Source: Gilliamella sp. Pra-s52 (GTDB lineage Bacteria; Pseudomonadota; Gammaproteobacteria; Enterobacterales; Orbaceae). Taken from it: a DNA stretch of 64,000 bases. Positions within the stretch are counted from its first letter, which is position 1. Each line of letters begins with the position of its first letter. Below the pieces are notes generated by a model, which saw nothing but the letters and a program-made list of their open reading frames with translations, did no database searches and was not told where the DNA came from. The DNA is taken from assembly GCF_009795805.1 (NCBI RefSeq), contig NZ_WTEY01000002.1, positions 248,001 through 312,000 of the forward strand, in the 5' to 3' direction. Shown piece by piece: positions 17,893 to 31,790 of this stretch. Made by a program: the position numbers and the translations under genes.

Positions 17893-17915
17893 TTGGGGCT
17901 TAATATCAGCCCCAA
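17893..17915. terminator. Hairpin between citG and the RNA-repair operon
   Basis: A perfect 8-base-pair, GC-rich stem (TTGGGGCT and complement) with loop TAATATC lies between convergent genes. T runs are poor on both sides, so termination strength is uncertain. Confidence 0.5.
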
Positions 17916-17943
17916 TGAGTATGATATAATATGAATAATAGTG

Positions 17944-19086
17944 TTATGAATTAATTAAATAACTCACCTTATGCGCTTCAGTCTGTAGTGGAACTTCCCA
18001 TTTATTTAATAACCGTTGAATGGTTTTATTTGGCAAGGTCGTATCCCGCGCAGAGTTACGGCGATACAACTCTTTTTCTGGCTGTTCAAGATAGACGATT
18101 TCCACATTCGCATGATAAGCATAAAGCAAATCCAATGCTTTTTGACGCATCTCTTGCGATAAATGAGTCGCATTCCAAATAAAAGGTTGTTTTGCTCTTA
18201 ACCACTGTTTAACCTTTGCCAGAACAAATTGAATAACAAGCCCTTCGTTTTCACCATGCTTTAATTTTAGCTCAGTTCTAGCATCATCATAAGAAGCAAC
18301 CGCCCAAGTTGGGTAATGCTGACTGATCCAACTATTTTTACCTGAAGCAGGTAAACCCGATAGCATAATCACATGAGAACCTTTTTGCGGAAACAATGGA
18401 TAATCAGGTAACACATTACTGCCTCGAAAATATTGCACTCGAGTATAATCATCAACAAATTGGCGAGGCTGATATAAACACGCCTCCTCAAGCGCCAACT
18501 GCTTGAATAATTCAACTTCATCAAGTGCTCTTTTTTTATCAGCACAAATGCGCCCTTTCATATCCACTTTTGCTTGCAGGCATAACATCCAAATAGGCAA
18601 TTGCCATGATAAACGATGAATTAAAAACTCAGGCGATCTCTTTTTTTGCGCATCACTTAATGCAAAAAAAGGCACTTGATGTACACTAATGATTCGGCAA
18701 ATTTGCTCACGTAAATCAAATGGTACACCCATTCGCCATAATAAAATACGACTACGAATCTCGCCTTTTTTGGAATGCCGTGGTTGCGTAATTTTACCTG
18801 TGTCTTCATCAATAACCGTGGTTTCAGGTTTAGCGATATCATGCAACAAAGCCGTCATAAATAATACAAACTGCTCATCTTCTGTTGCATTGGCAAATTC
18901 TTCTTCTGCCAATAATGCCCGTATCACCATTTGCGTATGAATCCAAACGTTACCCTCGCCATGGTGCGAGGGATCTTGCGGTGTAATGATTAAGTCATTC
19001 AATTCAGGAATACACGTTAACCATGGACTAAAATCATCAGTTGCCAAGGTACTTGCTATTTGCTGTTTTAATGCTTGGTAATTCAT
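17944..19086 (-). CDS. HD-Pnk: HD phosphoesterase fused to polynucleotide 5'-kinase
   Basis: Predicted bifunctional RNA end-healing enzyme of 380 residues. The N-terminal HD domain has candidate metal ligands H50, H82-D83, H104, H136 and D175 (KVDMKGR). The C-terminal P-loop kinase has Walker A GLPASGKNS at 244-252, with Asn where Ser/Thr is usual. This architecture matches Runella slithyformis HD-Pnk, which removes 2',3'-cyclic and 3' phosphates and phosphorylates 5'-OH ends. I start it at ATG 19086, overlapping the ligase stop in TGATG and preceded by GGAGG six bases upstream; the GTG at 19089 is too close to that site. Coupling to the ligase supports a heal-then-seal RNA repair role (inference). 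Confidence 0.85.
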   Translation of the reverse strand: MNYQALKQQIASTLATDDFSPWLTCIPELNDLIITPQDPSHHGEGNVWIHTQMVIRALLAEEEFANATEDEQFVLFMTALLHDIAKPETTVIDEDTGKITQPRHSKKGEIRSRILLWRMGVPFDLREQICRIISVHQVPFFALSDAQKKRSPEFLIHRLSWQLPIWMLCLQAKVDMKGRICADKKRALDEVELFKQLALEEACLYQPRQFVDDYTRVQYFRGSNVLPDYPLFPQKGSHVIMLSGLPASGKNSWISQHYPTWAVASYDDARTELKLKHGENEGLVIQFVLAKVKQWLRAKQPFIWNATHLSQEMRQKALDLLYAYHANVEIVYLEQPEKELYRRNSARDTTLPNKTIQRLLNKWEVPLQTEAHKVSYLINS

Positions 19087-19946
19087 CACTTACCTCCATT
19101 TAGGCATCGATTATTCCAATTCACCGTCAATTGTGGCGTATATAACTGAGCATTTTGAGCCAATTGGTTTGGAATAAAAGGCTGTTCACTATGGTGCTGT
19201 CCTGCATCTAAAATCGCCTGAACAAAATCTTGCCTAACCCATTTTAAGCGATCAAGCGTTTGCTCTTCCGATTCGATTTTAATATATAATCCCTCCATCA
19301 AATCAGAATCATCACATTGTTGCCAAGCTCTAGTTAAATCAAGTTTTTCACGCATTACCATCTTTTCAAAACAAGCACGCCAATTGGCGGTTTTAGCTAA
19401 AGAAGATGTAATTAACGCTAATAAATCACTTAATTTAGCGGGAGCAAGCCCTGCAAACAACACAGGTACCGATAAAATAGGACCGTCAGCTAATAACTGA
19501 TGCCGTTTTAAAGTCGATAAAAAACAGTTTTGTTGCCTATCCCAAATATCAAATTCACAAAAATAATGAGGTAATGCATCATAAAAAATAGCATGCTTTT
19601 TATGTAACCATTCACCATAAAGGATATAACGATCTTCTAAACGCTCAAGTAGCCAGTTTTCATGCACGCAAGCCCAGTGTTTTAATAGGTTAAATTGACG
19701 CTCTCTAGCTCCCCCTATCAAATAATGTCCTCGGGATTGAAGCAAAAGTTCACCACTTGCCGAAAAACTAATTGCACAGTTTGCACCATCAAGCTTTTCT
19801 TCAACAACAATATACTGACCAGTTAACTGTTTATAAGGACGCTGTCCATGTTCACTATCACCGAATTGTAAGCGTGATCCTTCTAAATGAGGTGTTCGTG
19901 GATATTTAATTAATTCTAAATTTTGAATATAAGATTCCGTTGTCAT
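19086..19946 (-). CDS. ATP-dependent RNA ligase
   Basis: A 286-residue covalent nucleotidyltransferase-type ligase. Motif I is EKLDGAN with K51 as the predicted AMP-accepting lysine; a SRG motif with R72, motif III YGEWLHKKH (110-118), motif IIIa FCEFDIWD (129-136), motif IV EGLYIKIE (218-225) and motif V LKWVR (234-238) are all in order. No BRCT, OB or zinc domain is attached, as in small Rnl-type RNA ligases rather than replicative DNA ligases. GGAGA stands before the ATG. It is the first gene of the operon, with HD-Pnk next, so it would seal the ends its partner prepares. The natural substrate, such as cleaved tRNA, is unknown. Confidence 0.87.
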   Translation of the reverse strand: MTTESYIQNLELIKYPRTPHLEGSRLQFGDSEHGQRPYKQLTGQYIVVEEKLDGANCAISFSASGELLLQSRGHYLIGGARERQFNLLKHWACVHENWLLERLEDRYILYGEWLHKKHAIFYDALPHYFCEFDIWDRQQNCFLSTLKRHQLLADGPILSVPVLFAGLAPAKLSDLLALITSSLAKTANWRACFEKMVMREKLDLTRAWQQCDDSDLMEGLYIKIESEEQTLDRLKWVRQDFVQAILDAGQHHSEQPFIPNQLAQNAQLYTPQLTVNWNNRCLNGGK

Positions 19947-19974
19947 AATGTTTTCTCCAAAAAATAAGGGAAAA

Positions 19975-20065
19975 CCGACAAGGCAAAAATCTATAGATTG
20001 AATTGCAACGAAGAAGCTTAGAAAAAACTAAGCAAAAGACAATATGATAGAAATACCAAGTCGGC
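19975..20065 (-). other. Structured leader upstream of the RNA ligase
   Basis: Read on the minus strand, CCGAC and GG at 20064-20056 can pair with CC and GTCGG at 19983-19975 around a U-U/U-U internal loop. Inside lies a perfect 6-pair hairpin GCTTAG/CTAAGC with a T6 loop (20033-20016) and the 12-base palindrome AATCTATAGATT. The element ends 28 bases before the ligase ATG. It could be a 5'-UTR control element or a small RNA; no known family was recognised. Confidence 0.45.
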
Positions 20066-20066
20066 A

Positions 20067-20093
20067 TTAAGATAAAGTGTTAATTACAGGCAT
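20067..20093 (-). CDS. Possible 8-residue leader peptide of the RNA-repair operon
   Basis: ATG at 20093 opens a frame for MPVINTLS that stops with TAA at 20067, two bases before the paired leader element begins. GAGG at 20104-20101 lies 7 bases upstream of the ATG, an ideal spacing. Its placement between a strong promoter and the structured leader is like an attenuation leader peptide, but translation is unproven and such a short frame may occur by chance. Confidence 0.35.
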   Translation of the reverse strand: MPVINTLS

Positions 20094-20140
20094 TTTGCTA
20101 CCTCGTTATAATGAAGTTATTAGATTAAAAAAACGGCGCT

Positions 20141-20169
20141 ATTATCAAGAGTTGCTAATTTATTGTCAA
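20141..20169 (-). promoter_or_regulatory. Sigma70 promoter for the RNA-repair operon
   Basis: On the minus strand, consensus TTGACA (20169-20164) is followed after 17 bases by GATAAT (20146-20141). Transcription would begin near 20134, giving a leader of about 190 bases before the RNA ligase. A near-consensus housekeeping promoter differs from the sigma54 control of the E. coli rtcBA RNA-repair operon. Confidence 0.65.
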
Positions 20170-20413
20170 GTTTAATGATAAGAAATAGTTAGTATTGTTA
20201 AAAATAATACCTTCCACTAATCACTTTTTGACCGTTAATTGGCTATTATCCAGAGTATGTTATTATTGGTTTTGTTAATTTATTAGTTGTCAGTGGGCTA
20301 CCCTAATTATGCAAACAGTTGATTTTTATGAAAAAAACAATCAAAAAAAACTTTAATAAAATCAATACCTTTCCTGACCATTTTTTTACAAAACGCCTCC
20401 TTTCCTTAAAGCC
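20170..20413. other. Gene-free AT-rich stretch with a dispersed 24-nt repeat
   Basis: No gene was found between the repair-operon promoter and the response-regulator gene. Bases 20355-20378 are identical to 52067-52090 downstream of galM, and both copies continue with one changed base and a T run. The remainder is AT-rich without clear sites. Confidence 0.6.
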
Positions 20414-31649: not shown

Positions 31650-31790
31650 AATAAACCTCTAAAGTTTGTTCGTATCGCTATATAAACGGCTATAAAAGCA
31701 AAATCTATACACCATACGAGTGTTAAAAAACATGATAAGGTTGCGAATTATATGCCTTAAAGCTTAAATAATCAAGCGACAAAAAACTAA

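Follow-up and report, generated by a model that had tools for sequence, protein, structure and literature searches.

How does a bacterium sense that its RNA has been cut, and bring out the enzymes that mend it? How bacteria detect cut RNA is an open question, and in the one well-studied case, RtcR, the sensor is a protein. The question is raised by an operon of Gilliamella sp. Pra-s52 that encodes an ATP-dependent RNA ligase and HD-Pnk, a protein that joins an HD phosphoesterase to a polynucleotide kinase. The operon occupies positions 17944–19946, minus strand, of the 64,000-nucleotide (nt) stretch of contig NZ_WTEY01000002.1 analyzed here (the window; contig positions 248,001 to 312,000), with the ligase gene upstream and the HD-Pnk gene downstream. 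We think it probable that the two genes are a mobile RNA-repair cassette gated by a leader-peptide translational attenuator that reads the state of translation.

A Conserved Leader Separates the Promoter from the Ligase Gene

The sequences that precede the ligase gene are these:

20141–20169, minus strand: σ70-type promoter, TTGACA-17-GATAAT, with 11 of 12 matches to the consensus
20135–20140, minus strand: G+C-rich discriminator AGCGCC, which by eye resembles that of a stable-RNA promoter
19947–20134, minus strand: 5′ leader RNA of the operon, about 190 nt, conserved and found by RNA model R1

The first-pass annotation, made from the letters of the window alone, had pointed to a near-consensus σ70 promoter and had taken its strength as a hint that the operon may be expressed in normal growth. 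The promoter itself is real: TTGACA, the 17-nt spacer, and xATAAT are kept in all 19 Orbaceae and Snodgrassella loci listed, although promoter-like sites as a class are not enriched in the window (9 found versus 14.1 expected from shuffles). The constitutive reading, on the other hand, is incomplete and probably misleading. Because the promoter feeds a leader of about 190 nt, not seen in that earlier reading, that contains a short upstream open reading frame (uORF) and base pairings that close the ligase start, expression of the operon is, to judge from its sequence, most likely controlled after transcription initiation.

In an alignment of the upstream regions of the Orbaceae loci, conservation begins at the −35 box and continues for about 190 nt to the ligase start codon, and the sequence farther upstream is unrelated between loci. 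The transcription start is placed at about 20134 from the position of the promoter. A GCGC or GCGCC discriminator is likewise present in Orbaceae, Wohlfahrtiimonas, and Pseudomonas (L004–L048, L042, and L024), as in growth-rate-controlled stable-RNA promoters. The leaders of Pseudomonas and Betaproteobacteria are far more diverged and have the same design. Among 27 aligned leaders the invariant columns are the uORF start codon and the base after it, the uORF stop, CCGAC, parts of GTCGG, one T in the middle, a base of the ligase Shine–Dalgarno (SD) sequence, and the ligase start codon; the 80–180 nt between CCGAC (segment 2, below) and GTCGG (segment 3) vary freely in sequence and length.

Searches with R1, a sequence-only covariance model of the leader, tied it closely to the ligase gene. 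The Pra-s52 genome contains one match, the leader itself (E = 1.6e-22), and the only strong match in 339 genomes of the class is again that of the Pra-s52 operon. Leader and ligase searches of 199 Pseudomonas genomes, run independently, matched the same 14 genomes, in all of which the end of the leader adjoins the ligase start; the leader is absent from six others that have only a distant ligase (35%–40% identity). On plasmids, matches were confined to two P. aeruginosa plasmids, both carrying the ligase. No Rfam family matches the leader on its strand, and the leader is a previously uncatalogued RNA element. Elsewhere in the window Rfam places an L31 ribosomal protein leader (31655–31718, minus strand).

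A Short Upstream ORF Abuts Two Competing Helices

The elements within and at the end of the leader are as follows:

20100–20104, minus strand: SD sequence of the uORF, GAGGT
20067–20093, minus strand: uORF of eight amino acids, ATG CCT GTA ATT AAC ACT TTA TCT TAA (MPVINTLS and stop), with conserved start and stop; the proposed sensor
20060–20065, minus strand: segment 2, GCCGAC (CCGACGAC in other lineages), directly 3′ of the uORF stop, with CCGAC invariant
19975–19981, minus strand: segment 3, TTGTCGG (GTCGTCGG in other lineages), whose partner is either segment 2 or the ligase start region
19954–19958, minus strand: SD sequence of the ligase, GGAGA, from the sequence and the leader alignment
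19937–19983, minus strand: hairpin of segments 3 and 4, from predicted folding, that sequesters the SD and start codon of the ligase

An SD-like sequence (GGTGA, GGAG, or GAGG) precedes the uORF at the same spacing in all lineages. The uORF is 7–9 codons long and starts with ATG, GTG, or once TTG; exactly 2 nt separate its stop from CCGAC in 64 of 65 loci, a set in which some genomes were reached twice. Its peptide occurs in 26 different peptide/start combinations in these loci, with proline as codon 2 in nearly all and no codon beyond the start common to all. Because the SD sequence and the stop geometry are fixed and the peptides are many, it is apparently the position of the uORF, not its peptide, that is conserved. 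A nascent-peptide arrest sequence was rejected on account of this variation.

Segment 2, CCGAC(GAC), is complementary to GTC(GTC)GG near the ligase start. The resulting duplex (2:3) is stronger than in dinucleotide shuffles (P ≤ 0.05) in at least 17 of 20 representatives, and 93% of its cells in the alignment are paired versus 13%–64% in slid controls. Both sides of the helix have changed at two pairs, and in Wohlfahrtiimonas GACAGCAATT:AATTGTTGTC stands in for most of it. Segment 3 also supplies the 5′ arm for the lower stem of a two-part hairpin that buries the ligase SD sequence, the AUG, and the next codons; segment 4, its partner, is this ligase start region, comprising the SD hairpin plus the AUG and next codons. 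The two-part hairpin is predicted in most of 17 representatives despite their different sequences (the lower stem is AGUCGUC:GACGACU in Chitinimonas and GCGUC:GACGC in Ralstonia), with the SD sequence paired in all 17 and P ≤ 0.05 against shuffles in 15. Formation of 2:3 removes the lower stem over the AUG and codons 2–4. In the predicted structures, that is, the two pairings of segment 3 compete, with an overlap that is only partial in Wohlfahrtiimonas. An SD-bearing uORF upstream of two competing helices gives the leader what appears to be the anatomy of a leader-peptide translational attenuator.

Modeled Ribosomes Favor Opposite Outcomes Early and Late in the uORF

We modeled the leader with a ribosome whose leading edge was set 12 nt beyond the first nucleotide of the A site. 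With the stop codon in the A site the ribosome extends to +36, counted from the uORF start, and segment 2 lies at +29 to +36; CCGACGAC is exactly what a ribosome at the uORF stop would cover. With the ribosome on codons 1–2 and the nascent RNA ending after segment 3, 2:3 was nearly fully formed in 16 of 16 leaders, a result matched by none of 400 shuffled controls. Without a ribosome, 2:3 was lower, with means of 0.70 in Pseudomonas and 0.62 in Betaproteobacteria versus 1.29 and 1.08 (in units of eight pairs), behavior that in these models resembles that of a three-state attenuator.

The logic that these predictions best support, as we infer it, is that a completed uORF closes the ligase gene and an early stall opens it. 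A strong, stable-RNA-like promoter would make the operon mRNA. As long as ribosomes finish the uORF, a ribosome at the stop would cover segment 2, segment 3 would close over the ligase start, and little enzyme would be made. A ribosome that stalled in the first uORF codons, for example for lack of charged or intact tRNA after tRNA cleavage, would leave segment 2 available for pairing with segment 3 before transcription reached segment 4; the ligase start codon would then be exposed, and the ligase and the coupled HD-Pnk would be translated and would heal and rejoin the ends of broken RNA, the most plausible substrate being tRNA. Three parts of this proposal we put forward conditionally: which way the switch works, the loss of tRNA as its signal, and tRNA as the substrate of the enzymes.

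What might cause such a stall? The first-pass annotation had raised tRNA-cleaving toxins as something that the operon may counter. The Pra-s52 genome has, in addition to the operon, two RtcB genes about 3.2 kb apart on opposite strands (C55:55470–61043; loci L074 and L075), and no PrrC- or RloC-type anticodon nuclease scored above the cut-off in that genome. Because of these two facts, a toxin from outside or a general failure of translation is more likely to be the trigger than a resident nuclease of this type.

The Enzymes Appear Suited to Healing and Sealing RNA Ends

The two genes are these:

19086–19946, minus strand: Rnl2-like ATP-dependent RNA ligase, 286 amino acids (PF09414, E = 2.5e-34; motifs and folds), with K51 as nucleotidyl acceptor
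17944–19086, minus strand: HD-Pnk, 380 amino acids, with an N-terminal HD phosphoesterase and a C-terminal polynucleotide kinase, from domains, motifs, and fold

The first-pass annotation had described a coupled ligase and HD-Pnk with all ligase motifs and HD ligands visible, together supplying the three steps of RNA repair, and this description held up as regards the genes and their motifs. Both open reading frames (ORFs) are present, with Pfam domains (for HD-Pnk an AAA_33 kinase, E = 1.9e-17, and an HD domain at 21.6 bits, where the cut-off is 22), and the genes overlap. HD-Pnk was listed as an ORF of 17944–19089, minus strand, opening with GTG at 19089; we favor the alternative ATG at 19086 as the likely start, hence 380 amino acids. 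The junction is GGAGGTAAGTGATG, so that the ligase stop overlaps this likeliest HD-Pnk start in a TGATG behind GGAGGTAAG.

Nucleotidyltransferase motifs I (KxDG), Ia, III, IIIa, IV, and V are all present in the ligase, and in an alignment of 18 homologues the residues K51-x-D53-G54, R72-G73, E112, E218-G219, K235, and R238 are invariant or nearly so. The same is true in HD-Pnk of H82-D83, H42, H50, H104, H136, and D175 in the HD domain and of GxPxxGK (244–250), D267xxR270, and R343/R347 in the kinase. Because a PDB sequence search returned no match for either protein, structural comparison required predicted folds. The AlphaFold2 model of HD-Pnk has a mean predicted local distance difference test score (pLDDT) of 92.8 and matches the Clostridium thermocellum Pnkp kinase, mammalian PNKP, and T4 Pnk. 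That of the ligase is weaker (mean pLDDT 69.0, and below 50 for residues 252–286, the region compared with the T4 Rnl2-type C-terminal domain); its best solved matches are the Naegleria gruberi RNA ligase, REL1, and T4 Rnl2. Neither protein matched the anti-phage defense models of PADLOC. Given the motifs, the invariant gene pairing (below), and the predicted folds, a reading in which HD and Pnk would heal the ends and the ligase would seal them with ATP is well supported. As a pair, the enzymes are of a known kind, a unit that heals and seals RNA/DNA ends.

The Operon Travels as a Cassette with Its Leader

The search for the pair in related genomes that the first-pass annotation had proposed bore out the coupling. 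With the ligase as query, a genome-wide scan returned 51 loci, and HD-Pnk lies directly downstream in every one. Because these loci were fetched by the ligase alone and not by HD-Pnk, the pairing is far beyond chance. The hosts are Gilliamella, Frischella, Snodgrassella, Pseudomonas, Pantoea, Wohlfahrtiimonas, Ralstonia, Chitinimonas, Uliginosibacterium, Aquabacterium, and one Eremiobacterota. The ligase gene is rare, occurring in five of 369 class-sampled genomes (several of these being distant relatives) and in seven of 399 genomes of the order centered on Ralstonia sp. A12. Flanking genes are not conserved between lineages, and clustering of neighbors for a conserved third partner yielded none outside close relatives; as judged from gene order, the ligase and HD-Pnk are a unit on their own. 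A search of viral contigs found no close relative.

The limits of the unit are drawn by comparison with Snodgrassella gandavensis (L003), a betaproteobacterium from the same kind of habitat as Gilliamella:

17903–20203, minus strand: transferable unit of about 2.3 kb, 91% identical to that of S. gandavensis and the sole stretch in common in 9 kb compared

Outside it, only short low-complexity matches were found over the 9 kb. Because only 17903–20203 is common to the window and Snodgrassella, we conclude from the sequence comparison that a cassette of about 2.3 kb, made up of promoter, leader, and both genes, moves as a whole, also between Gilliamella and Snodgrassella. In Snodgrassella (L002, L003, L008, and L009) the cassette stands at two different sites, its proteins as much as 94% identical to those of the Gilliamella copy; the second site has more G+C-rich flanks. 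The Snodgrassella and Gilliamella copies read as a transfer between bee-gut symbionts.

Some relatives depart from the standard arrangement. In one Gilliamella metagenome-assembled genome (L050:915–1714) a frame break interrupts the ligase gene, HD-Pnk remains whole, and TTG serves as the start of the uORF. On Variovorax plasmids (L060:4957–5301) a small ORF that is HNH nuclease–like by eye only, with no Pfam match, sits between the two genes. A second, distant RNA ligase family is encoded by the third gene of an operon with an HEC-03B-like ATPase and an HEC-03A-like protein, a PADLOC candidate defense system, on Aeromonas and Tistrella plasmids (L064:2224–4684 and L065:2062–4690; also L055 and L057, and perhaps L107–L112); this ligase itself has no PADLOC match.

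Weighing the Proposed Switch against Other Explanations

Several observations weigh against a leader-peptide attenuator that opens on an early stall. The core CCGAC:GTCGG pairs hardly vary, so the covariation rests on the flanking pairs and on Wohlfahrtiimonas, and the pairing of segments 3 and 4 (3:4), taken alone, is weak in single species. The uORF shows neither an arrest peptide nor conserved regulatory codons, no sensor codon being shared across lineages, and in Pseudomonas sp. PA15(2017) (L028:5852–5890) its stop is TGG instead of TGA. That segment 2 is lost when the ribosome sits at the stop codon is built into the model by the ribosome mask. At equilibrium, full-length Pseudomonas leaders favor the closed form in nearly every ribosome state, so any switch there must be kinetic, decided during transcription. 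For the leader of the window the modeled shift in start-codon accessibility is modest, from 0.38 to 0.50. The SD stem persists in both states, and a thermodynamic test of SD pairing only showed no switch, because the part that competes is the lower stem covering the AUG. Finally, the leader is absent from the homologous operons of Variovorax, Sphaerospermopsis, Methylorubrum, Bosea, Eremiobacterota, and a diverged proteobacterium (L054/L073).

The idea that the leader is ancestral to all HD-Pnk operons was rejected because of these leaderless lineages. The Pseudomonas variant, L028, is the sole locus in which the uORF runs on, and it could serve as a natural test of the attenuator model.

An attenuator of opposite sign is, in our judgment, unlikely. 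Here 2:3, stacked on the SD hairpin, would be the closed state, and a ribosome at the uORF stop would break it, so that ligase would be made when translation is healthy. The survival of the SD stem alongside 2:3 is in keeping with such an arrangement, as is the finding that 2:3 forms by default in ribosome-free Orbaceae leaders. However, the 3:4 hairpin buries the AUG and codons 2–4 as well, it is this lower stem that 2:3 removes, and in the Orbaceae models a ribosome at the stop lowers the accessibility of the AUG instead of raising it (mean 0.38 versus 0.59).

It is quite improbable that the repair proteins or a small ligand control the leader, by autoregulation or as a riboswitch, and that the uORF is incidental. 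A second role for CCGAC is hinted at by Wohlfahrtiimonas, which keeps the motif though its two C's are not needed for pairing. Yet the start, SD sequence, stop, and spacing of the uORF are the most constant features of the leader, whereas a conserved aptamer core was looked for and the 80–180 nt between segments 2 and 3 proved variable, and no Rfam riboswitch matches.

We also think there is little chance that the operon is constitutive, the leader affecting only mRNA stability or fixing the level of translation. The conserved, near-consensus promoter would suit such an operon, but a fixed level needs no exactly placed uORF stop and no pair of competing helices, kept across two proteobacterial classes.

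That DNA, and not RNA, is the main substrate of these enzymes, an idea put forward for the radiation-induced HD-PNKP/ligase operon of Deinococcus radiodurans, seems very unlikely. The HD-PNKP of that organism does phosphorylate DNA 5′ ends (PMC1997131), but its ligase showed no sealing of DNA (PMC1997131), the Gilliamella ligase belongs to the RNA_ligase family (PF09414) and has RNA ligases as its closest solved folds, and a leader that read translation would fit RNA damage better than DNA damage.

Last, a transcription attenuator, in which the 2:3 helix and the T's after it would form an intrinsic terminator, was rejected and has almost nothing to commend it: GTCGTCGG is followed by four or five T's in Pseudomonas and Orbaceae, but the run is missing in most Betaproteobacteria (GGCTCC), and a scan of the window found no terminator-like site at segment 3.

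Relation to Known Repair Systems and Attenuators

Munir and Shuman reportedly characterized the HD-Pnk of Runella slithyformis in 2017, homologues of which are said to be encoded often with an ATP-dependent ligase. The Gilliamella protein shares with it the order HD then Pnk, the conserved catalytic residues, and the ligase partner, but matches no solved structure by sequence; we know of no leader of the Gilliamella type reported for HD-Pnk of the Runella type.

The D. radiodurans operon DRB0098–DRB0100 likewise unites HD-PNKP and a ligase but has a third gene, for a macro-domain-like protein, is induced by radiation, and encodes a ligase with adenylation but no sealing activity (PMC1997131). 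The Pnkp–Rnl–Hen1 complex offers kinase, phosphatase, and ligase activities for ribotoxin-cleaved RNA (PMC4411300), activities that in the Gilliamella pair are predicted from sequence; that complex, however, has another type of phosphatase and a methyltransferase, and in our survey the Gilliamella kinase scored 24 bits against the Pnkp model cut-off of 750, with no conserved hen1 neighbor. The RNA-repair genes of RtcBA, with RtcR, are controlled in response to RNA damage (PMC7790460), as is proposed for the Gilliamella operon. RtcB chemistry is unrelated, however, and RtcR is a protein sensor at a σ54 promoter, whereas the Gilliamella operon would use a cis-acting RNA and has a σ70-type promoter. 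In jumbo phages RNA ligases occur together with end-healing enzymes, HD-like domains among them, and phage HD-Pnk and ligases (PHROG 6931 and 24030) belong to the same protein families, but the closest phage ligases are only 25%–31% identical, and cassettes of the Gilliamella type are chromosomal or plasmid-borne.

As to the leader itself, a short uORF beside alternative RNA helices is also found in the leader-peptide attenuators of ermC, trp, and PA5471.1–armZ. In contrast to these, the Gilliamella leader precedes an RNA-repair operon, its peptide and codons are not conserved, and what it would sense is translation generally, not a single drug or amino acid. PA5471.1, for its part, reacts to the tRNA damage that comes with loss of Cca, an enzyme of tRNA repair: when Cca is missing in P. 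aeruginosa, more of the leader PA5471.1 mRNA is on ribosomes and armZ expression rises (PMC13041342). By analogy, PA5471.1–armZ is the closest precedent for the proposed logic.

Implications

We regard as evenly balanced the fuller proposition that the operon is a self-contained, horizontally mobile RNA-damage switch, whose mRNA gauges translation by the stalling of ribosomes, once tRNAs are cut, on a short uORF without sequence conservation, and uncovers its own start site with no protein regulator. If it is true, RNA damage would be sensed by an mRNA leader and the ribosome, which is directly testable with simple reporters, and the natural signal would be the loss of translation capacity. 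The leader itself is a new RNA element in Pseudomonas, bee-gut bacteria, and Betaproteobacteria, P. aeruginosa plasmids included, and it marks a repair cassette that is transferable and has passed between symbionts resident in the same gut.

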